Shown here: piece after piece, positions 2,828 through 15,333 of the stretch
Layout of the letters: every line of letters starts with the position of its first letter
Numbering within the stretch: position 1 is the stretch's first letter
IMG/VR virus record: IMGVR_UViG_3300017752_003462
Coordinates: 1 to 22,889 of that record
DNA: 22,889 nt
Direction: 5' to 3' (one strand)
Source of the DNA: a virus
The notes under the pieces: generated by a model
The model's database searches: none
Told to the model about the DNA's origin: nothing
Seen by the model: only the letters and a program-made list of their open reading frames with translations
Program-made: the position numbers and the translations under genes

Positions 2828-2983
2828 ATGAATAAGTGTACGGATTGCGATGAAAATTTAATATGGGGTGGAGACCATTCCTATGAAGATTATAGCATTG
2901 AAGGTGAAGGTATTGTATCAAACTATAGTTGTTTTAATAAAAATTGCGAGGTAGAAACATTAATAATTTATAGAAATATATGA
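2828..2983 (+). CDS. Small zinc-ribbon-like protein between groEL and groES (51 aa)
   Basis: The 51-residue frame starts MNKCTDCDENLIWGGDHSYE. It has C4-x2-C7 and C35-x4-C40 pairs that could bind one zinc ion, separated by an acidic, aromatic loop. I recognise the general pattern (Cys pair, IWGGDH-like turn, GIVSNYSC) as a small phage zinc-ribbon type, but no function is established. It starts 2 bases after groEL stops, and its TGA overlaps the groES ATG (ATGA at 2980-2983). It is therefore almost certainly translated within the chaperonin operon. A chaperonin accessory role is possible but only inferred from position. Confidence 0.8.
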   Translation: MNKCTDCDENLIWGGDHSYEDYSIEGEGIVSNYSCFNKNCEVETLIIYRNI

Positions 2984-3237
2984 AACCAATTGGAAAATAT
3001 ATAGTAATTAAAAAAATAGAAGAGGAAGTAAAAACGGAATCTGGAATTTTATTATCTTCAGAAGACGTATCTTCTATGAGATATCAAAAGGGCAAGGTTG
3101 TAAAACCAGGAACTTTAGTTGATACCATAAAAGAAAAAGATATTATATATTACGATAAAGCTGCGGGTCACTCAATGCTTATAAATGATTTTGTATACAC
3201 AGTAATATCAGAAAGAGATGTTGTTGTTGTTGTTTAA
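2980..3237 (+). CDS. groES: Phage-encoded GroES-type co-chaperonin (85 aa)
   Basis: GroES forms a seven-fold lid on GroEL. This 85-residue protein is a little shorter than E. coli GroES (97). It shows KPIGKYIVIKKIEEEVKTES, then the mobile-loop core G22-I-L-L25 that matches the GroEL-binding Ile-Val-Leu tripeptide. It continues with a KGKVVKPGT strand, KEKDIIYYDK (the VGDxVxF strand equivalent) and a terminal VISERDVVVVV like E. coli LIMSESDILAIVE. It is the last gene of the chaperonin operon, overlapping the zinc-ribbon gene by 4 bases. Its stop overlaps by 4 bases the end of the convergent minus-strand regulator, so antisense interference between the two transcripts is possible. Confidence 0.93.
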   Translation: MKPIGKYIVIKKIEEEVKTESGILLSSEDVSSMRYQKGKVVKPGTLVDTIKEKDIIYYDKAAGHSMLINDFVYTVISERDVVVVV

Positions 3238-3689
3238 TTATCTTCTCGTATCTCTTTATTTATTTTAAGCATATAGTTTCTAAATACTTTATCTCTGAAT
3301 TTAACATCGTGTTTAAATACAGGGTTGTTTACATAGTTTTCAGGAAACTCTTCACCATTTAATTTTGCATAAACATTACTAATCATTCTCTTGGCCTTGT
3401 ATGTGAGCTCGTATAAAGCAGCTTGATTACCTTTTTTCTTTCTCCATTCGTGTATCCAACCATTTTTTATTAGCTCATAGAATTTATTTTTATTCCAGCT
3501 AAATAATTCCTGGTACTCTTCAAATTTAGTTTTGTTAAACAAATGCTCACTATATAAAAAAAGCATTAGCTCTAAGTCTCCAGTAGTTATATTATATTTT
3601 CTTTTAGCCCAATACTTTACTACTCTCCAATATTTAAGATAGTCATGTGTTGGATTTGACCTTGATGTATTTCGGACAGGTACACTCAT
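3234..3689 (-). CDS. Predicted winged helix-turn-helix transcriptional regulator (151 aa)
   Basis: This is the only minus-strand gene in the window. Residues about 17-105 read like a MarR-type winged helix: a first helix HDYLKYWRVVKYWAKRKY, a helix TTGDLELMLFLYSE (36-48), a likely recognition helix WNKNKFYELIKNGW (65-78), and a basic wing EWRKKKGNQAALYEL (81-95). The C-terminal about 40 residues are charged and helical, possibly for dimerisation. It is divergent from the amidase gene; its promoter element (3728-3735) faces and overlaps that of the amidase. This layout suits a regulator acting on its own and the late promoter. The fold assignment rests on sequence pattern only, and the target is inferred. 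Confidence 0.7.
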   Translation of the reverse strand: MSVPVRNTSRSNPTHDYLKYWRVVKYWAKRKYNITTGDLELMLFLYSEHLFNKTKFEEYQELFSWNKNKFYELIKNGWIHEWRKKKGNQAALYELTYKAKRMISNVYAKLNGEEFPENYVNNPVFKHDVKFRDKVFRNYMLKINKEIREDN

Positions 3690-4181: not shown

Positions 4182-4397
4182 ATGCCAACTAAAGACAAAA
4201 ATCGTAAAAAAGTAAGAACCCAAGTTTGTAAGATAAACAAAAAAGGGGTTAAGAAGTGTACTTATAAGATGGTTAAAAGAACACCTAAGGAATTAAAAGC
4301 TTATGATAAAATGAAATCAAGAGGAGCTAATAAAAGTTTAAGTGATCTTGATGTAAGCTATCCTACTAAAGTAATTGATAAAAGAAAAAAGAAATAG
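4182..4397 (+). CDS. Lys-rich mini-protein 1 of the basic cluster (71 aa)
   Basis: 26 of 71 residues are Lys or Arg against six acidic ones. There are two cysteines (C16, C26) near the middle, and the chain ends DKRKKK. No known domain is recognised. It opens a run of fifteen short same-strand genes and starts 12 bases after the amidase stop. The high charge suggests nucleic-acid or polyanion binding, but this is inference. Confidence 0.8.
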   Translation: MPTKDKNRKKVRTQVCKINKKGVKKCTYKMVKRTPKELKAYDKMKSRGANKSLSDLDVSYPTKVIDKRKKK

Positions 4398-4399
4398 TT

Positions 4400-4546
4400 A
4401 TGATAGATCCTAAAAATAAAAAGAAAGGGAAACTAAAACAAAAAGCTATTACTTTTATATTTAATAAAATTAAAGATAATAAGGCACGTAGTGCTTATAG
4501 AAAAAAGAAGAGAAAGTCAAGAAGAACTTATAATCCTTACGACTAA
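4400..4546 (+). CDS. Lys/Arg-rich mini-protein 2 (48 aa)
   Basis: The frame starts ATG at 4400 after the A/T-rich leader AATAGTTATG and has 19 basic residues in 48, three acidic. Its centre has a short hydrophobic patch (AITFIFNKI, 16-24). It then has a strongly basic tail (about 34-42, RKKKRKSRR) and ends YNPYD. Its stop shares the TAATG junction with the next gene, indicating coupled translation. Function unknown; histone- or protamine-like charge is the only clue. Confidence 0.7.
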   Translation: MIDPKNKKKGKLKQKAITFIFNKIKDNKARSAYRKKKRKSRRTYNPYD

Positions 4547-4704
4547 TGGCAGGGAGAACAAAAAAGAAAGGAAATAAAATTTGCCCATCTGGTATAGCAT
4601 GGGCTAAAAGAACATTTGATAAGTATCCGTCAGCATATGCAAATATGGCTGCAAGTAAATATTGTAAAGACCCTAACTACGCTAAAGGCAAAAAAAAGAA
4701 ATAA
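4546..4704 (+). CDS. Basic mini-protein 3 with KxCPSGIAWAKRTFD motif (52 aa)
   Basis: The protein reads MAGRTKKKGNKICPSGIAWA, then KRTFDKYPSAYANMAASKYC and a KKKK tail. Cysteines C13 and C40 flank the conserved-looking core IAWAKRTFDKYPSAYAN. I recognise this core as a recurrent type among small proteins of marine and other environmental phages, generally annotated hypothetical. It is coupled by TAATG to the preceding gene. The structured core between two basic ends distinguishes it from pure protamine-like peptides. Function unknown. Confidence 0.8.
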   Translation: MAGRTKKKGNKICPSGIAWAKRTFDKYPSAYANMAASKYCKDPNYAKGKKKK

Positions 4705-4709
4705 TAATT

Positions 4710-4826
4710 ATGGACGCAAAGAAATTAAAACAAATATCAAGAGAGCTTAAAAAAGCTTCTGCTATGCACAAAGGTCAAGCGAACAAAATAGATAAGATGC
4801 TAAAAACTTTAAAGAAAAAGAAATGA
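4710..4826 (+). CDS. Basic mini-protein 4 (38 aa)
   Basis: 38 residues, 14 basic and 3 acidic, predicted as one or two helices (LKQISRELKKASAMHKGQAN) with a KKKK end. It starts after the recurring TAATTATG leader, and its TGA overlaps the next ATG by 4 bases (ATGA). It is so short that the support is mostly the operon context and the regular junctions. Function unknown. Confidence 0.65.
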   Translation: MDAKKLKQISRELKKASAMHKGQANKIDKMLKTLKKKK

Positions 4827-4948
4827 GTAAATTAAGTAAGTCTCAGAGAAAAATTGCAAGAGCAGCAATGCCTTTTAATAAAATTACGGGTGCAGATTTT
4901 AAAGTATTAAAAAATAAAAAAAAGTTTAAAAAAGTAAAAAGTAAATAA
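4823..4948 (+). CDS. Basic mini-protein 5 (41 aa)
   Basis: 41 residues with 15 Lys/Arg and a single acidic residue. A short helix (SKSQRKIARAAMPFNKITGA) precedes a lysine-rich tail. It overlaps the preceding gene by 4 bases (ATGA). No domain is recognised; it could be a DNA-binding or virion-internal peptide by charge only. Confidence 0.65.
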   Translation: MSKLSKSQRKIARAAMPFNKITGADFKVLKNKKKFKKVKSK

Positions 4949-4950
4949 TT

Positions 4951-5124
4951 ATGCCAACAGTAAAGTATAAGTGTGGAGACACAGGTAAAATGAAAACAAA
5001 ACAATTTCCTTACAATGCAGTAGGTAAAGCTCAGGCAGCTGAGTTTGCTAAAACAATGAAGGGTAGTATGAAAAACAATCCAGGATACGGGATGGAAAAA
5101 AAGATGGGTTCTAAAATGTATTAA
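4951..5124 (+). CDS. Mini-protein 6, Lys/Met-rich (57 aa)
   Basis: 57 residues starting MPTVKYKCGDTGKMKTKQFP, with one cysteine (C8) and a Met/Gly/Lys-rich C-terminus (GYGMEKKMGSKMY). The section PYNAVGKAQAAEFAKTMKGS resembles a small helical unit. It starts after the AATAATTATG leader and is coupled to the next gene by TAATG. Function unknown. Confidence 0.75.
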   Translation: MPTVKYKCGDTGKMKTKQFPYNAVGKAQAAEFAKTMKGSMKNNPGYGMEKKMGSKMY

Positions 5125-5351
5125 TGGGAGAGTTAAAAAAATGGCGTGAAGAAAATTGGGTTCGTATCGGTACTGACGGTAAGATAAAAGGCCCATGCGG
5201 TACTTCTAAAAATAAGAAGAACCCTGATCGTTGTTTACCTATGGCTAAGGCCAAAAGACTATCTAAAAGAAAACTTGCTGCTACTGCTCGAAAGAAAAAG
5301 AAAGAAGGATCAAAAGGAAAGCAATTTGTAAAAAACGTAAAAGGAGTATAA
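5124..5351 (+). CDS. Basic mini-protein 7 with WxxENWVRIGTDGKIKGPCG motif (75 aa)
   Basis: The 75-residue protein begins MGELKKWREENWVRIGTDGK. It continues GPCGTSKNKKNPDRCLPMAK (23-42), with C25 and C37 that may pair or bind metal, then a Lys/Arg-rich helix and tail. 25 of 75 residues are basic. The layout (Trp-rich start, GPCG, RCLP, AKAKRLSKRKLAATARKKKK) is a familiar type of small phage protein without a proven role. It is coupled by TAATG to the preceding gene. Confidence 0.85.
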   Translation: MGELKKWREENWVRIGTDGKIKGPCGTSKNKKNPDRCLPMAKAKRLSKRKLAATARKKKKEGSKGKQFVKNVKGV

Positions 5352-5353
5352 CA

Positions 5354-5476
5354 ATGGCAAAAAAATTTAAAATACACAACATGTATAGTAAAACTGGAAT
5401 CAAAAAAGTTGCTAAAACAATGAAAGATCATTTAGCTTTAAAGAAAAAGGGATATACTCATACTAAGAAAAAGTAA
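5354..5476 (+). CDS. Basic mini-protein 8 (40 aa)
   Basis: 40 residues, 14 of them lysine, reading MAKKFKIHNMYSKTGIKKVA then KTMKDHLALKKKGYTHTKKK. It contains no cysteine and is probably one amphipathic helix with basic ends. It starts 2 bases after the preceding stop and is coupled to the next gene by TAATG. Function unknown. Confidence 0.7.
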   Translation: MAKKFKIHNMYSKTGIKKVAKTMKDHLALKKKGYTHTKKK

Positions 5477-5730
5477 TGCCAACACCAAGAAAAGGAAAAG
5501 CTAAAGTAAAGGTTACTGCTTCTGGAAAAAAAGTAAGTTATGGCCAAGCAGGAAAAGCAAAAGGTGGTGGACCAAGGGTAAGACCTGGTACTTCCAAAGG
5601 TGATTCATATTGTGCCAGAAGCTATGGAATAAAGATGGGCTTACCTATTGGTAAAAGAAATGATCCTAATACTCCTAATAATTTATCTCGTAAGAGATGG
5701 AAGTGTGTAGGTAAAAAATCAAAAAGATAA
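5476..5730 (+). CDS. Basic mini-protein 9 with YCARSYGIKMG motif (84 aa)
   Basis: 84 residues with 24 Lys/Arg. The first half is low-complexity and Gly/Lys-rich (KAKVKVTASGKKVSYGQAGK). The second half has VRPGTSKGDSYCARSYGIKM, then NDPNTPNNLSRKRWKCVGKK. Cysteines C46 and C77 sit in compact conserved-looking segments, so there may be a small fold with a flexible basic N-terminus. I recognise the GTSKGDxYCARS...LSRKxWKC pattern from other environmental phages, where it is uncharacterised. It ends the first sub-block of the cluster, 6 bases before an internal promoter element. Confidence 0.85.
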   Translation: MPTPRKGKAKVKVTASGKKVSYGQAGKAKGGGPRVRPGTSKGDSYCARSYGIKMGLPIGKRNDPNTPNNLSRKRWKCVGKKSKR

Positions 5731-5736
5731 AAATAG

Positions 5737-5744
5737 TATATTTG
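5737..5744 (+). promoter_or_regulatory. Internal -7 promoter element (TATATTTG)
   Basis: TATATTTG matches TAnnTTTG and is followed by TAAAAAATAAATAACATG. Almost the same leader follows the elements at 20297-20304 and 6636-6643. It lies 15 bases before the start of the interrupted gene at 5760 and would drive the second half of the mini-protein cluster. No -33 box is visible. Confidence 0.5.
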
Positions 5745-5759
5745 TAAAAAATAAATAAC

Positions 5760-5963
5760 ATGAAAAAGCAAGGTTACAATTGAAGACTTGATGAGTCATT
5801 AGGATCTAAAAACGGAAAAAAATCTCAGTCTATGAAATCAAGACGAGATGAAAGTAAAGGAATGGCTAAAAAAATGGACGGTCACGCATACGGCGGAGAT
5901 CACTCTATGAAGTACTATCCTAAAAGTGTTAAATCTCATTTGTCTTCTTTAATTAAGAAGTAA
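5760..5963 (+). pseudogene. Mini-protein 10, interrupted by an in-frame TGA at codon 8
   Basis: From ATG 5760 the frame reads MKKQGYN, then TGA (5781-5783), then continues open for 59 codons (RLDESLGSKNGKKSQSMKSR, then RDESKGMAKKMDGHAYGGDH, to SLIKK) up to TAA at 5961-5963. The part after the TGA is intact, with cluster-like composition, and the YNxRLDESLG block looks like a typical continuous protein start. A single-base change (for example from TGG, TCA, CGA or AGA) would explain the stop. Translation could restart at ATG 5832, giving 43 residues. It could be a sequencing error, a recent nonsense mutation or readthrough. The next gene is coupled by TAATG. Confidence 0.65.
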
Positions 5964-6124
5964 TGAGTTTTAAAAAAGTCGCTTCTAAAATAGCTAAGAA
6001 GCAAGGCATCTCTAAAAAAAGAGCATCTGCTATATTAGCATCTTCTACTCGTAAAGCGAGTGCAGCAGCAAAAAGAAAAAACCCTAAGCTTAAAAGAGTA
6101 AAAGGTAAAGCTAAGCGAAAGTAA
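5963..6124 (+). CDS. Histone-like basic mini-protein 11 (53 aa)
   Basis: 53 residues with 21 Lys/Arg and no acidic residue, the most basic of the cluster. Residues 1-36 (MSFKKVASKIAKKQGISKKR, then ASAILASSTRKASAAA) read like two helices with a GISKKRA turn that superficially resembles a helix-turn-helix. The tail KNPKLKRVKGKAKRK is fully basic. I recognise this KIAKKxGIS...AILASSTRKAS type from many phages, where it is hypothetical. DNA binding is likely from composition but unproven. It is coupled by TAATG to the interrupted gene. Confidence 0.8.
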   Translation: MSFKKVASKIAKKQGISKKRASAILASSTRKASAAAKRKNPKLKRVKGKAKRK

Positions 6125-6152
6125 GGGTAAGTTTAAATTAATTAAATTAAAT

Positions 6153-6305
6153 ATGGCAAAAAAGAAAACAGCCACAAAAAAAAGTACAACCACAAAAAAA
6201 AAGGTTGAGAAAAAGGAAATTATAAAAGAAGCTGATGTTGTAAGAAACTTAGTTCAAGTAGTTCCCTACGTTAAAAGAAAAACTATATATAATACAAACA
6301 AATAA
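6153..6305 (+). CDS. Mini-protein 12 with H1-like Lys/Thr N-terminus (50 aa)
   Basis: The first 21 residues (MAKKKTATKKSTTTKKKVEK, then K) are almost only Lys, Thr and Ala, like a histone H1 tail. The rest (EIIKEADVVRNLVQVVPYVK) is a normal mixed helix and strand segment, followed by a short basic end. It starts 28 bases after the previous gene, behind an AT-rich leader containing the near-match TAAGTTTA. It is coupled by TAATG to the next gene. Function unknown. Confidence 0.75.
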   Translation: MAKKKTATKKSTTTKKKVEKKEIIKEADVVRNLVQVVPYVKRKTIYNTNK

Positions 6306-6508
6306 TGGAGTTTAGAATTTCACAACCCTTAGCAGCCTCACCCTCAGGAAGAGGATATGGAAGAAGAGCAATGCGTAAAGCAAAACGAAAAGCTCAAAGA
6401 GGAGCAAGAATTGGACAAAAGTTAGCAAACATTTGTTCAAGAAGCCTAAAGAGCGGTAAAGGATGCAGAAATAAAAAAGGATCTGTAAAAGGATTTAAAG
6501 GAAGATAG
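6305..6508 (+). CDS. Arg-rich mini-protein 13 (67 aa)
   Basis: 67 residues with 11 Arg and 10 Lys but only one acidic residue (E2), the most arginine-rich protein of the cluster. Residues 12-36 are Gly/Arg/Lys-rich (SPSGRGYGRRAMRKAKRKAQ), followed by ARIGQKLANICSRS and a Gly/Lys tail. There are two cysteines (C44, C54). The composition is protamine-like. It is coupled by TAATG to the preceding gene. A virion or nucleoid role is inference only. Confidence 0.8.
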   Translation: MEFRISQPLAASPSGRGYGRRAMRKAKRKAQRGARIGQKLANICSRSLKSGKGCRNKKGSVKGFKGR

Positions 6509-6512
6509 TATT

Positions 6513-6659
6513 ATGGGAAAACTCTTAGTAAAATTAGGATATTGGATTCAAAAATCATGGTGTAAGGTATTGTGTAAATGGAACTGGACTATATCTAAGC
6601 TAATTATAAATGTGAATGATTGTCCAATAGCAGAATGTATTTGTAAAAAAAATAAATAA
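6513..6659 (+). CDS. Trp/Cys-rich mini-protein 14 (48 aa)
   Basis: Unlike its neighbours, this 48-residue protein is hydrophobic and rich in Trp (W11, W16, W23, W25) and Cys (C17, C21, C37, C42, C44). It reads MGKLLVKLGYWIQKSWCKVL, then CKWNWTISKLIINVNDCPIA and ECICKKNK. The N-terminal 35 residues could lie along or across a membrane. The C-terminal C-x4-C-x-C could bind metal. It starts 4 bases after the preceding stop. Function unknown. Confidence 0.75.
   Translation: MGKLLVKLGYWIQKSWCKVLCKWNWTISKLIINVNDCPIAECICKKNK
6636..6643 (+). promoter_or_regulatory. Weak promoter-like element (TGTATTTG)
   Basis: This site has one mismatch to TAnnTTTG, but it is followed by TAAAAAAAATAAATAAAATG, nearly the same leader as after the 5737-5744 and 20297-20304 elements. 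It lies inside the end of the preceding gene and 17 bases before the next ATG. Confidence 0.3.
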
Positions 6660-6660
6660 A

Positions 6661-6816
6661 ATGAAATCAAAAGGACTTGGAGATACAATTGAAAAAGTAA
6701 CAAAAGCAACAGGTATTCATGCAGCTGTTCAAACAGTAAGTAAAGCAATAGGAAAACCCTGTGGTTGTTCTGAAAGAAAAGATTCTTTAAATAGAAAATT
6801 TCCTTATCAGAAATAA
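6661..6816 (+). CDS. Mini-protein 15 with C-terminal CGC motif (51 aa)
   Basis: 51 residues: a helical N-terminal half (MKSKGLGDTIEKVTKATGIH, then AAVQTVSKAI) followed by GKPCGCSERKDSLNRKFPYQ. The GLGDTIEKVTKATGI...PCGCSERKDxLNxxFPY layout is a recurring small phage protein type that I recognise without a function. C34-x-C36 resembles the CxC end of the preceding protein, so the two may share a metal or a partner. It is the last of the mini-protein run, 36 bases before a virion-type gene. Confidence 0.8.
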   Translation: MKSKGLGDTIEKVTKATGIHAAVQTVSKAIGKPCGCSERKDSLNRKFPYQK

Positions 6817-7659: not shown

Positions 7660-8121
7660 ATGTCAGAAACCTCCAAAAAAAAATTTAAAGACACTACCGT
7701 AGGAAAACTATTGTTAGGTGCTGCTCATGTAGTGAACCCTGCATTAGGGAAAGTTCTTGAAGGAGTTGTTGATCCACAAGAGGCTATAGCTGAAATTTCA
7801 AAATCTAAAATATCTGTTGAAGATAAAATCAAACTTCAGCAAATGATATATAATCATCAGAACAAAGAACTTGAAGAAATTTCAAAAAGATGGTCATCAG
7901 ATATGCTTAGTGATAATACGCTATCTAAATCTATTAGACCACTATCTTTAGCATTTGTTTTAATAAGCACAGTTTTGCTTATATTTATTGACTCTGGATT
8001 TATTAACTTTGCAGTAGATAGCGAATGGAAAGAATTATTAAAAATGCTTCTTATTACAATCGTTGCAGCTTATTTTGGAGGACGTAGTTACGAAAAAATA
8101 AAAAAAACAAAATTTTTATAA
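7660..8121 (+). CDS. Holin, 3TM / GTA-holin type
   Basis: Holins make inner-membrane lesions that let the endolysin reach peptidoglycan. The 153-residue protein has a family-typical soluble N-terminal helical half and the signature KRWSSDM (76-82) followed by LSKSIRPLSLAFV. It then has two clear membrane segments (about 96-112 and 126-140) and the AYFGGRSYEK end. This pattern matches the Holin_3TM/GTA_holin group (the third membrane helix is weak or amphipathic). The partner endolysin is the amidase at 3741-4169, 3.5 kb upstream. The gene abuts the next one, whose ATG follows the TAA directly. Confidence 0.85.
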   Translation: MSETSKKKFKDTTVGKLLLGAAHVVNPALGKVLEGVVDPQEAIAEISKSKISVEDKIKLQQMIYNHQNKELEEISKRWSSDMLSDNTLSKSIRPLSLAFVLISTVLLIFIDSGFINFAVDSEWKELLKMLLITIVAAYFGGRSYEKIKKTKFL

Positions 8122-8864: not shown

Positions 8865-11333
8865 ATGGCAATAAAATATTTATCAAACATTAATTTAACC
8901 AACGGTGAGTTACAGAATTTTAAAGTACAAAACGTAACTTCAGATCCTTCCGTTACTGGAGAGGGTCAACTTATTTATAGATCCGATACAAACGTACTTA
9001 AATATTATAACGGTGCATCATGGGTAACATTAGGAGCTGCAGTAGGCTCAGTAGTTAATTCATTTACAAATACAAATGGAGGAACATTTGTTTCTTTTGG
9101 AACAGCTAACTCAGCGGCAACGGGAGCGGTAAGTATTGGAGATGTTGATTTATCAGCAACGGGAACACCAAGTGGAACAACATTCTTAAGAGGTGATAAT
9201 GTATGGGCTACTCCTGCAGGACAGTATACTTCTTGGACTTTATCTGGAGACAGTGGTTCATCTCAAGCGATTGCTGATGGAAATACTGCAACATTTGCTG
9301 GAGGAACAGCTATTTCTACTGTAGCAAGTGCAACAGATACGTTGACAATAAACTTAGATGATACTGCGGTAACGCCAGGTTCTTATACGTATGCAAGTAT
9401 TACTGTAGATCAACAAGGTAGATTAACTTCTGCAAGTTCAGGAACAGCTCCTGGAACAATGTCATCATGGACATTGAGTGGAGACAGTGGTTCAAGTCAA
9501 ACTATTTCTAATGGTAACACAGTTGATATAGCAGGTGGAACAAAAATTTCTACTGCAGCAAGTGCAACAGACACGCTTACTGTAACTCACAATAATACTT
9601 CAAGAACAGATACTACAAGTACAGATAGTTTAGGTTCTGGTGGATCATTCACTAAAGTAGATAGTGTAAGTACTGATGTAACTGGACACGTAACTGCAAT
9701 CAATCTTGAAACAGTTACAATAGGTTCTTTTGATAACTACGGTTCATGGACTTTAGCTGCAGATAGCGGATCGAGTCAAACAATTTCAAGTGGTAATACT
9801 GCTACTATAGCTGGAGGTACAGGATTAAGTTCAGTGGCCAGTGCAACTGATACAGTTACATTAAACTTAGATGATACTGCAGTTACTGCAGGTTCATATA
9901 CTTCTGCTGATATTACGGTAGATGCTCAAGGTAGAATTACAGCAGCATCAAGTGGTGGATCAGGAACAATGACTTCTTGGACACTTGCAGGATCAAGTGG
10001 TTCTTCTCAGTCAATTACAAACGGTAATACTGCAACATTTGCTCAAGGTAATGGTATTACTACCGTTGCAAGTGCGACTGATACTTTAACAATAACAAAC
10101 AGTAAACCATTTGATAAGATATCACTGATTGCTGATTCGGGTACTGACTCAGATATCGGAAACAACGATTCATTCGATATTGCTGGTGGTACAAATATAT
10201 CTACAGTAAACAACGGAACTGGAACAGTTACAATTAACTATACTGGAGGTACGGGTACAATGTCAAGCTTTACTTTAGCTGCTGACACTGGTACTTCACA
10301 AACCATTAGTGACGGTAATACACTTACAGTTGCTGGATCTACAGGTATTGACACCGTAGCCAGTGCGACAGACACTGTTACAGTTAATCTTGACTTATCT
10401 GAATTAACTACAGTTACAACTATTGATCCTGCCGCAGACTTTTTGGTAGGTGTAGATGGAACTGCAAACGAAAAAATATTATACCAAAATGTACACTTAA
10501 ACCAATGGGGTGATGCAGAAGCAGATGTAGACTTTGGTGGAAATAAATTATTAGATGTAGCTACAGGTACTGCTGGAACGGACGGTGTTAACTTAGCACA
10601 AGTTCAATCTATAGCAGCTGGAGTTGGTACTTTCCAAGGTGGATATAATGCAAGCACAAACTCTCCTGCATTAACTGGAGGAAGTAACGTTGCATTAGAT
10701 CAGGGTGACTTCTATGTAGTTACTACAGCAGGTACATTCTTTACAGAAACTTTAGAAGTTGGTGATTTAATATTTGCTAATTCAGCTATTGCTGCAAGTT
10801 CAACACCTTCTCTAACAGATTATACAGTTGTTATAGCTGATCAAAACATTGCTGGAGCAGGAGCTACAGATGGAGCAACACAAAAAGGTGTAGCTGGATT
10901 TGATAGTGGAAACTTTGGAGTAACAGCTAATGGATTTGTAACATTAGATGATACAGGAGTTACTGCAGGATCATATGGTTCAGCAAGTAAATCACTTTCT
11001 GCTACTGTAACTGCAAAAGGTTTAGTAACTTCGCTAAGTGAACAAAATATTTCAATCACAGCATCTCAGGTAACTGACTTCTGTACTGCAGTAGAAACAT
11101 GTGTAGCTTCAGATTTAACGTTTGCTACTAACATTGGTAATGGTGTTGCAACTTCTTATCAGGTTACTCATAACTTAGGAACAAGAGACGTAATAATTCA
11201 GTTGTATGACAATAGCACATACGATACAGTTTTTGCTGATGTTTTAAGAAATACAACAAATCAAATTACAATAACAACAAACAGTCCAATTGCAACTAAT
11301 GATGTAAGAGTATTAATTAGCAAGACTGTTTAA
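8865..11333 (+). CDS. Large repeat-containing tail fibre protein (822 aa)
   Basis: Residues 1-55 (MAIKYLSNINLTNGELQNFK ... KYYNGASWVTLG) form a typical fibre attachment module. The GTPSGTTFLRGDNVWATPAG stretch follows, a motif common in Bacteroidetes and T4-type fibre proteins. Residues about 123-510 contain at least five copies of a 77-97-residue repeat beginning SWTL(S/A)...DSGSSQxIxxGNT and including ASATDTLT. The C-terminal about 56 residues form the HNLG module (VTHNLGTRDVIIQLYD). It contains Ser, Thr, Gly and Ala in bulk and has no enzyme motif. Adsorption to the host surface is the expected role. The next gene carries a related repeat. Confidence 0.85.
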   Translation: MAIKYLSNINLTNGELQNFKVQNVTSDPSVTGEGQLIYRSDTNVLKYYNGASWVTLGAAVGSVVNSFTNTNGGTFVSFGTANSAATGAVSIGDVDLSATGTPSGTTFLRGDNVWATPAGQYTSWTLSGDSGSSQAIADGNTATFAGGTAISTVASATDTLTINLDDTAVTPGSYTYASITVDQQGRLTSASSGTAPGTMSSWTLSGDSGSSQTISNGNTVDIAGGTKISTAASATDTLTVTHNNTSRTDTTSTDSLGSGGSFTKVDSVSTDVTGHVTAINLETVTIGSFDNYGSWTLAADSGSSQTISSGNTATIAGGTGLSSVASATDTVTLNLDDTAVTAGSYTSADITVDAQGRITAASSGGSGTMTSWTLAGSSGSSQSITNGNTATFAQGNGITTVASATDTLTITNSKPFDKISLIADSGTDSDIGNNDSFDIAGGTNISTVNNGTGTVTINYTGGTGTMSSFTLAADTGTSQTISDGNTLTVAGSTGIDTVASATDTVTVNLDLSELTTVTTIDPAADFLVGVDGTANEKILYQNVHLNQWGDAEADVDFGGNKLLDVATGTAGTDGVNLAQVQSIAAGVGTFQGGYNASTNSPALTGGSNVALDQGDFYVVTTAGTFFTETLEVGDLIFANSAIAASSTPSLTDYTVVIADQNIAGAGATDGATQKGVAGFDSGNFGVTANGFVTLDDTGVTAGSYGSASKSLSATVTAKGLVTSLSEQNISITASQVTDFCTAVETCVASDLTFATNIGNGVATSYQVTHNLGTRDVIIQLYDNSTYDTVFADVLRNTTNQITITTNSPIATNDVRVLISKTV
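9231..10400 (+). repeat. Tandem coding repeats within the fibre gene
   Basis: Repeat units start with Ser-Trp-Thr-Leu codons at 9231, 9465, 9744 and 9975, and with Ser-Phe-Thr-Leu at 10266. Spacings are 234, 279, 231 and 291 bases, all multiples of three. A more diverged copy lies near 10110-10200. The units share DSGSSQ, GNT, AGGT and ASATDT blocks at protein level, with varied codons. A further diverged unit occurs in the neighbouring gene near 12624. Confidence 0.8.
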
Positions 11334-13976: not shown

Positions 13977-14201
13977 TTGGACATAAGAAAAATATCCATA
14001 GGCACAGATTATAAATCTGGTGCAATGCATTATATTGTAGGCCAAGAAGTTTTGGGAGGAGGATATTCTATTCACTTGATACAACACAATAAAGAATATG
14101 AATCATATATGATATGGATTCAAAAAGAAAACGAAGTGTTGTTGTGGAAAGAATTTAAAACCACCATGCCAATCTCATTGGAATATAATATAAATTTTTA
14201 A
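13977..14201 (+). CDS. Small hypothetical protein with TTG start (74 aa)
   Basis: The frame follows the previous stop directly; TTG at 13977 is the only sensible early start. It gives MDIRKISIGTDYKSGAMHYI, with the only ATG being internal at codon 17. The protein (VGQEVLGGGYSIHLIQHNKE ... EVLLWKEFKT ... ISLEYNINF) is a compact beta-type domain of 74 residues. I recognise this DIRKISIG...YNINF layout from other phages as conserved but uncharacterised, which supports the TTG start. It is coupled to the next gene by TAATG. Confidence 0.75.
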   Translation: MDIRKISIGTDYKSGAMHYIVGQEVLGGGYSIHLIQHNKEYESYMIWIQKENEVLLWKEFKTTMPISLEYNINF

Positions 14202-14767
14202 TGCAATCACCACACTATTTTATTGTAAAACCACTAAAGGGTAAAAGGTATGATAACACTAAATCTTATGGAGACAAAGAGTTAATCATAAGTGTATCTG
14301 AAGAAGATCACACTGTTGCAAATAGGTTTGCAAAGGTAGTAAATATACCAATAGGGTATACTGGCGATATATCTATAGGTGACACAGTATTGGTTCACCA
14401 TAATGTTTTTAAATATTATAATGACATTTATGGAAGACAAAAAAGTGGACGAAGCTGGTTAAAAGACGATTTGTTTTTAGTAGATGAGTTTCAGTTTTTT
14501 TTATATAAAAAAGATAAAGACTGGAAAGCATATGATAAATATTGTTTTGTAAAACCTGTTTCTAAAAAAGATTCTTATTTTATAGGAAGCGGAGTAACAA
14601 AAGAGCCTCTACACGGCAAGTTGGTTTACATTAATAAACAGTTAGAAGCCTTAGGATTAAAGGTCGGAGACGAAATATGTTTTGAGCCACACAGTGAATA
14701 TGCATTTAAAGTAGAGGGGGAGGACTTATATAGAATGTTTACGCAAAATATTACTATAAAATTATGA
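14201..14767 (+). CDS. Tandem GroES-fold (co-chaperonin-like) protein (188 aa)
   Basis: The 188-residue protein appears to contain two GroES-like units. Unit 1 has FIVKPL (7-12), FAKVVNIP (43-50), IGDTVLVHHNVF (59-70) and a closing strand DDLFLVDEFQFFLY (89-102). Unit 2 has CFVKPV (115-120), HGKLVYIN (138-145), KVGDEICFEP (154-163) and EGEDLYRMFTQNITI (172-186). These follow the order in GroES: KPL/V strand, GKV strand, VGDxVxF strand, GxxYxxM...I end. A clear mobile loop with an Ile-Val-Leu tripeptide is not visible in either unit. It is coupled to its neighbours (TAATG upstream, ATGA downstream) inside the packaging operon. It could assist capsid assembly as a T4 gp31-like factor or be a structural use of the fold. 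Confidence 0.65.
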   Translation: MQSPHYFIVKPLKGKRYDNTKSYGDKELIISVSEEDHTVANRFAKVVNIPIGYTGDISIGDTVLVHHNVFKYYNDIYGRQKSGRSWLKDDLFLVDEFQFFLYKKDKDWKAYDKYCFVKPVSKKDSYFIGSGVTKEPLHGKLVYINKQLEALGLKVGDEICFEPHSEYAFKVEGEDLYRMFTQNITIKL

Positions 14768-15333
14768 TATATATAATAGATAATTTTTTAGACAAAGATT
14801 TTTTAAAGGTAACTCAAAATTATTTAAACGAACCTTTTCAAAAAGTTATTTCTGGAGAAAAAGATTTTTATGTTTTAGACTCAAATGAAGATTTTGATAA
14901 ATATATTTTAAGTTTACTCGAACAAAAAGAAGGGGTAGAATTAGAAAACATATTAAGTTTTTTTAGAATTGCCACAGATGAGTTAGACACTAACTGGAGA
15001 ATTCATTCTGATTTAAACATAAAAGGAGAAAGACCTGATCGTGCTATTGTATTGTATTTATCACCTAAAGAACTTGAAGAGTTACATGGAACAGCTTTTT
15101 GGGAACATGATATTTATGGTAAAGATTTACCACCTGAAATTACAGATGAAGAATATGATAGAATGCTCAAAGCTGATGCTGAGATTTTAGAAAAATGGAG
15201 GTTAAGTTCTGTGATTGGATATGAAGAAAATAGATTACTATCTTATCCTTCCAGTTATTTCCATAGTAAATTTCCTAATAAAGGATGGTCTTCAGGTAGA
15301 AAAGTATTTGTAATGTTTTATAAATTTAAGTAA
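14764..15333 (+). CDS. 2-oxoglutarate/Fe(II)-dependent oxygenase-like protein (prolyl-hydroxylase type)
   Basis: Members of this family oxidise a substrate using 2-oxoglutarate, O2 and Fe(II). The 189-residue protein has the expected double-stranded beta-helix signature. The H-x-D iron ligands are in NWRIHSDLNI (H81, D83), the distal His is in SSYFHSKFP (H167), and the 2-oxoglutarate-binding Arg follows 12 residues later (R179 in SSGRKVFVMFY). Strands RAIVLYLSP and GTAFWEHDIYG fit the core. The N-terminus IYIIDNFLDKDFL also matches this class. It overlaps the co-chaperonin-like gene by 4 bases (ATGA) and the small-terminase candidate by 1 (TAATG). The substrate is unknown; a protein of the head or packaging machinery is possible from context. 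Confidence 0.75.
   Translation: MIYIIDNFLDKDFLKVTQNYLNEPFQKVISGEKDFYVLDSNEDFDKYILSLLEQKEGVELENILSFFRIATDELDTNWRIHSDLNIKGERPDRAIVLYLSPKELEELHGTAFWEHDIYGKDLPPEITDEEYDRMLKADAEILEKWRLSSVIGYEENRLLSYPSSYFHSKFPNKGWSSGRKVFVMFYKFK

Follow-up and report, generated by a model that had tools for sequence, protein, structure and literature searches.

In the 22,889-nucleotide virus record IMGVR_UViG_3300017752_003462 (hereafter the window, that is, the whole stretch of DNA analysed), which belongs to a podovirus-like phage, fifteen small plus-strand genes (families F1 to F15) are packed between positions 4,182 and 6,816. On the basis of sequence comparison, three of them, F3, F7 and F9 (starting at 4546, 5124 and 5476), appear to form the core of a horizontally mobile guild that is exchanged by unrelated tailed phages and is located beside particle-building genes. 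The guild, as delimited in this way, is composed of the core plus F4, F5, F6, F10, F11, F14 and F15, and the window cluster seems to be a local instance of it. We favour, with moderate confidence, the explanation that the cluster is a mobile late-operon cassette of head-module accessory proteins that would be associated with the virion and bind nucleic acid.

At least four lineages of tailed phages contain the core. When large genes were clustered, four groups emerged (window type, HTVC023P-like, T7-like and C75C1-like) that had no two large-gene clusters in common, and no significant BLAST match could be observed between major capsid proteins across these groups, except for within-lineage pairs and CRP-7 with C75C1. 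Across the same four groups, the median identity to the window was 81-89% for F3 and 73-79% for F7. F3 preceded F7 in all 116 loci that contained both, the two being at most 600 bp apart in 103 and joined by a 1-nt TAATG overlap in 50; the position of F9 relative to F7 varied, with F9 following F7 in 16 of 57 cases and preceding it in the others. The nearest large open reading frames (ORFs) were mostly on the cassette strand (552, versus 52 on the opposite strand), and most core copies were located inside head, tail or packaging modules. The T7-like group has connector, scaffold, capsid and tail families, with the core placed between scaffold and major capsid protein. Prochlorococcus phage P-SCSP2 contains F3 (assigned from an alignment of its YPSAYAN motif and not with a Pfam model), F7 and F9 between the scaffold and major capsid protein genes. 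In pelagiphage HTVC027P, gp49, gp50, gp51 and gp52 correspond to F3, F7, F4 and F9, respectively, and their genes follow TerL and precede GroES and capsid; F10-like motifs were recognized by eye in gp48, and gene-level timing for gp49-52 was not found in the text of the HTVC027P transcriptome study. Roseophage CRP-7 has F9 and F7 immediately before TerL, with a small F3-like ORF (by eye) between them.

F11 is a widespread stand-alone family with 268 relatives in IMG/VR. F9-type ORFs were present in 23 of 80 fetched F11 loci (a set in which the same phage group may be represented more than once), always on the same strand and in 15 cases at an offset of 3-4 nt, and F7-type ORFs were present in 6 of the 80. 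When ten of the largest among 67 clusters of large genes nearest to F11 were tested, five belonged to the major capsid protein, TerL, portal, scaffold and head protease families, and the rest gave other or no families. F11, F7-type and F9-type ORFs were consecutive in loci L251, L252 and L253, which come from a single phage group that belongs to none of the four lineages.

The fifteen families in the window are as follows.
F1, 4182-4397, plus strand: 71 amino acids, net charge +20; no convincing relative found
F2, 4400-4546, plus strand: 48 amino acids, net charge +16; no convincing relative found
F3, 4546-4704, plus strand: 52 amino acids, cassette core, CPxGxAWAKRTFDxYPSAYANMAASKYC; phrog_27331
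F4, 4710-4826, plus strand: 38 amino acids, LKKASAMHKGQAxKIDKMLK
F5, 4823-4948, plus strand: 41 amino acids, LSKxQRKIAxxAxPxxKITGADFKxLK
F6, 4951-5124, plus strand: 57 amino acids, MPTVKYKC...FPYNAVGKAQA
F7, 5124-5351, plus strand: 75 amino acids, core, WVRIGTDGxIKGxCGTSKxKKNPDRCLP; phrog_23735
F8, 5354-5476, plus strand: 40 amino acids; 7 members found
F9, 5476-5730, plus strand: 84 amino acids, core, SYCARSxG...PNxxxxLSRKRWKC; relative of DUF6321
F10, 5760-5963, plus strand: family MKKQGYNxRLDESLG...; in-frame TGA at 5781-5783, only 5832-5963 open from ATG
F11, 5963-6124, plus strand: 53 amino acids, FKxVxxKIAKKxGISxKxAxAILAxSTRxASAAAKRKNPKLKRVKG
F12, 6153-6305, plus strand: 50 amino acids, Lys-rich N-terminus; no convincing relative found
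F13, 6305-6508, plus strand: 67 amino acids; one clear relative, in L023
F14, 6513-6659, plus strand: 48 amino acids, Trp/Cys-rich, MGKLLVKLGLWIQKTWCK...CPxxxCxCKK
F15, 6661-6816, plus strand: 51 amino acids, GLGDTIEKxTKATGI...CGCxxRxDSLNRxFPY; phrog_32048 (weak)

The first-pass annotation, made from the sequence alone, had described fifteen same-strand mini-ORFs of 38-84 codons, and all of them were located where it placed them. Five junctions had the TAATG overlap (starts at 4546, 5124, 5476, 5963 and 6305) and one an ATGA overlap (4823), and the others were gaps of 1-5 nt (six), 28 nt (one) and 101 nt (one). Its statement that most proteins contain 29-40% Lys plus Arg was true for 11 of the 15, the others being the ORFs at 4951 (21%), 5832 (26%), 6513 (19%) and 6661 (22%). 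The last two had been called not basic; their Lys plus Arg content is indeed lower, yet each has a net charge of +7, and the net charge was positive for all 15 proteins. The claim that many end in KKKK was overstated, as a C-terminal Lys run could be observed in only a few (4182, 4546, 4710 and 5354). In addition, the ORF annotated as 5832-5963 represents an incomplete gene: because members of its family start with MKKQGYNxRLDESLG, the F10 gene should be placed at 5760-5963. The codon at 5781-5783, TGA in the window, corresponds to A, S or D in every one of the 39 members (out of 42) whose motif was readable, and its equivalent is TCA in nine of these 39. We would first attribute the in-frame TGA to nonsense mutation or to sequencing error; recoding was set aside since TGA terminates three other window ORFs.

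Homologs of F3-F10 and F13-F15 were found in related phage contigs, and nearly all of these families were under purifying selection. A search of viral contigs in IMG/VR revealed at least 594 confirmed relatives of F3 and at least 581 of F7. We also collected 137 deduplicated loci, in which the members numbered 128 for F7, 121 for F3, 61 for F9, 48 for F15, 41 for F6, 36 for F10, 33 for F4, 30 for F14 and 25 for F5; these counts should not be read as prevalences because loci entered the set either through F3 or F7 or as named phages. F8 and F13 had 7 and 2 members, respectively, and no convincing relative of F1, F2 or F12 could be detected among the 137 loci. The median ratio of nonsynonymous to synonymous substitution rates (dN/dS) was lowest for F3 (0.12) and F7 (0.18), followed by F10 (0.26), F15 (0.27), F4 (0.28), F5 (0.34), F8 (0.34, 8 pairs), F6 (0.35) and F14 (0.40), and was higher for F13 (0.54, one pair) and F9 (0.63, from divergent alignments). 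A search of genome contigs with F7 returned 13 loci, every one of them in metagenome-assembled genome contigs, and therefore gave no sign of a cellular family.

Pfam and NCBIfam scans assigned none of the window proteins to a named family, and neither F3 nor F7 of the window gave any hit to DUF5872 (PF19197), let alone one above its gathering cut-off. F7 of P-SCSP2 scored 53.3 bits against this model (cut-off 27.5) over profile positions 55-112. An F3-like ORF in C72C1 scored 28.8 bits (cut-off 27.5) over positions 1-39, and the neighbouring F7 ORF matched positions 53-106 at 24.4 bits, which is below the cut-off. Since these relatives match separate parts of the profile, F3 and F7 are the counterparts of the N- and C-terminal halves of DUF5872. 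A DUF5872 protein has been listed for an algal giant virus (PMC12085832), and no DUF5872 protein is named in the paper on Chlorella-virus DNA-binding proteins. Similarly, F9 of the window did not reach the cut-off of DUF6321 (PF19846) and was not reported at an E-value of 1; the cut-off was passed by its relatives in P-SCSP2, HTVC027P and C75C1 and by cyanophage proteins. The window F9 is a divergent branch with the end LSRKRWKCVGKKSKR. AlphaFold models had a predicted local distance difference test score of 81 and a predicted template modelling score of 0.66 for F7 (71 and 0.49, respectively, for F3), and the matches of the F7 model among predicted viral proteins, mostly with weak E-values, included a DUF5872 protein as well as cyanophage proteins with DUF6321.

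In T4-like cyanophages, DUF6321 forms the C-terminus of proteins of ∼440-520 amino acids, some of which also contain F3-like and, more weakly, F7-like stretches. S-SCSM1_29 (517 amino acids, annotated as 'virion protein') has a C-terminal DUF6321 of 79.5 bits, an F3-like stretch of 15.6 bits (best shuffle 6.3) and an F7-like stretch of 14.7 bits (best shuffle 6.0). S-SM1_115 and Syn9 gp114 also end in DUF6321 and contain F3-like stretches of 19.5 and 14.8 bits, respectively, with an F7-like part visible by eye only. The F3-like stretches of all three proteins scored above 1,250 shuffles. Mass spectrometry of CsCl-purified S-SCSM1 particles identified 45 proteins (PMC9602691), among which S-SCSM1_29 was counted on the strength of its record name. 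ORF137 of S-CREM2, which has a C-terminal DUF6321, is likewise listed among the proteins of CsCl-purified virions, where 4 unique peptides covered 4.1% of it (PMC10665884, Table 3). The first-pass suggestion that the mini-proteins are packaged is therefore indirectly supported by DUF6321-tailed proteins of purified cyanophage virions.

Taken together, late, virion-associated accessory proteins are favoured by where the genes lie, by the fusions and by the detections in virions of two cyanophages, and a nucleic-acid ligand is favoured by the basic composition and the indifference to capsid type; the cassette proteins are probably virion-associated and nucleic-acid-binding. The split proteins would be made late in infection and, at low copy number, bind the packaged genome or the inner head via their basic surfaces and tails; they may also be delivered to the host along with the DNA. 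Their ligand is probably universal (DNA or RNA) rather than one capsid lattice, since the capsids beside which the same sequence is retained are dissimilar. It should be noted that several points weigh against this explanation. No split-form protein is reported from a virion in any source found. The F3-like (15-20 bits) and F7-like (14.7 bits) matches in the fusions are weak, ORF137 of S-CREM2 shares only the DUF6321 part and has low peptide coverage, and other parts of the fused cyanophage proteins could explain their presence in virions. Finally, profile searches of the PDB gave no solved relative and Foldseek/VIA searches matched neither the F3 nor the F7 model to a solved fold, so that the case for nucleic-acid binding is one of charge.

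Among the alternatives, the best surviving one, possible but rather unlikely, is that these proteins are head-assembly or packaging cofactors whose contact with scaffold, portal, terminase or capsid during head building is transient and which are barely, or not, retained in the virion. In T7-like phages, the core is located between the scaffold and major capsid protein genes, which would suit such a role, as would the TerL adjacency observed in CRP-7, P12024S (F15) and a Bradyrhizobium phage (F11) and the gene for ORF137, which lies between TerS and TerL in S-CREM2. However, the sequences of F3 and F7 are strongly conserved although the capsids next to them are dissimilar, which fits poorly with a partner that is one capsid or terminase, and DUF6321 proteins were found in finished virions. 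We consider it similarly unlikely, or slightly more so, that the genes encode late host-takeover effectors acting on the host nucleoid, ribosomes or mRNA, the virion traces being carry-over. Most lineages place the genes in structural modules and not in early regions, and DUF6321-tailed proteins remain in CsCl-purified particles; on the other hand, basic composition agrees with effectors, and many parallel small genes turn over among closely related phages in the manner of accessory genes for host interaction. For example, MW202828.1, the closest relative of the window by TerL (71% identity), has F15 and a DUF5754-like small gene (below cut-off) in the corresponding stretch (L002 12450-12740), and neither F3 nor F7 was noticed among the small ORFs read there.

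A protamine-like role in bulk condensation of the packaged genome, also raised by the first-pass annotation, is very improbable and was rejected on charge and mass: the summed net charge is +211 with one copy of each protein, so that, for the listed ORFs and an assumed genome of 60 kb, 90% neutralisation would require ∼512 copies of each, or ∼46 MDa of protein versus 39 MDa of DNA. Least credible of all are spurious frames in A-rich DNA. The strong A-richness of the stretch does inflate Lys codons, but when ORFs of 38 amino acids or more were chained, the best chain contained 15 ORFs over 2,499 of 2,681 nt, a tiling that 300 dinucleotide shuffles never reached (maximum 684 nt, 5 ORFs), and most families are conserved with dN/dS of 0.12-0.40. 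The spurious-frame explanation is refuted for the conserved families, and the frames were right to be taken as genuine proteins, with F1, F2 and F12 not individually proven.

The gene neighbourhood bears out the late, structural placement proposed for the cassette. Portal and structural families occur alongside it in the window and an amidase gene is directly upstream; GroEL- and GroES-like ORFs (1212-2825 and 2980-3237) precede it, and a holin-family ORF is found at 7660. The window TerL is 44% identical to those of Flavobacterium elemoviruses. An ORF of 188 amino acids before TerL (14201-14767) showed 47% identity to L082:14718-15293, which itself matches phrog_13932 (co-chaperonin GroES). 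Given this ORF and the GroEL/GroES-like ORFs upstream, the phage may have two GroES-like genes. A GroES gene is also located downstream of the cassette in HTVC027P. The minus strand carries an ORF of 151 amino acids at 3234-3689 (phrog_17028, function unassigned), and in 18 loci the ORFs closest to the cassette included large ones of a single minus-strand cluster. By eye, an ORF of 822 amino acids (8865-11333) contains several repeats of a motif like SWTLSGDSGSSQTIS, and one of 189 amino acids (14764-15333) resembles a putative 2OG-Fe(II) oxygenase.

Ocean phages have some very common small genes that are without function and annotated as 'hypothetical', and literature phrase searches on small basic phage proteins returned nothing on point. 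Viewed as one mobile guild, whose members are split in podoviruses and occur as fusions in cyanomyoviruses, many orphan families would become one testable question, for which culturable systems are available (HTVC027P on SAR11 and P-SCSP2 on Prochlorococcus MED4). A bolder and doubtful extension is that the proteins form a capsid-independent 'cargo kit' of virion-internal mini-proteins, modular and exchangeable among unrelated ocean tailed phages and linked by DUF5872 to an algal giant virus family, which would enter with the genome and prepare DNA or host nucleic acids at entry.

With regard to known systems, the T4-like cyanophage gene cluster T4-GC119 (S-SM1_115) and S-SCSM1_29 have the C-terminal DUF6321 and the F3-like stretch and adjoin terminase or tail genes, whereas each is a single protein of ∼440-520 amino acids and the window has separate mini-proteins. 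Likewise, DUF5872 has both halves in one chain, and the window has them as separate genes, with F3 always first. The internal proteins IPI-IPIII of phage T4 are small, basic, packaged in the head and ejected with the DNA; in the role proposed here, the cassette proteins would work like them.

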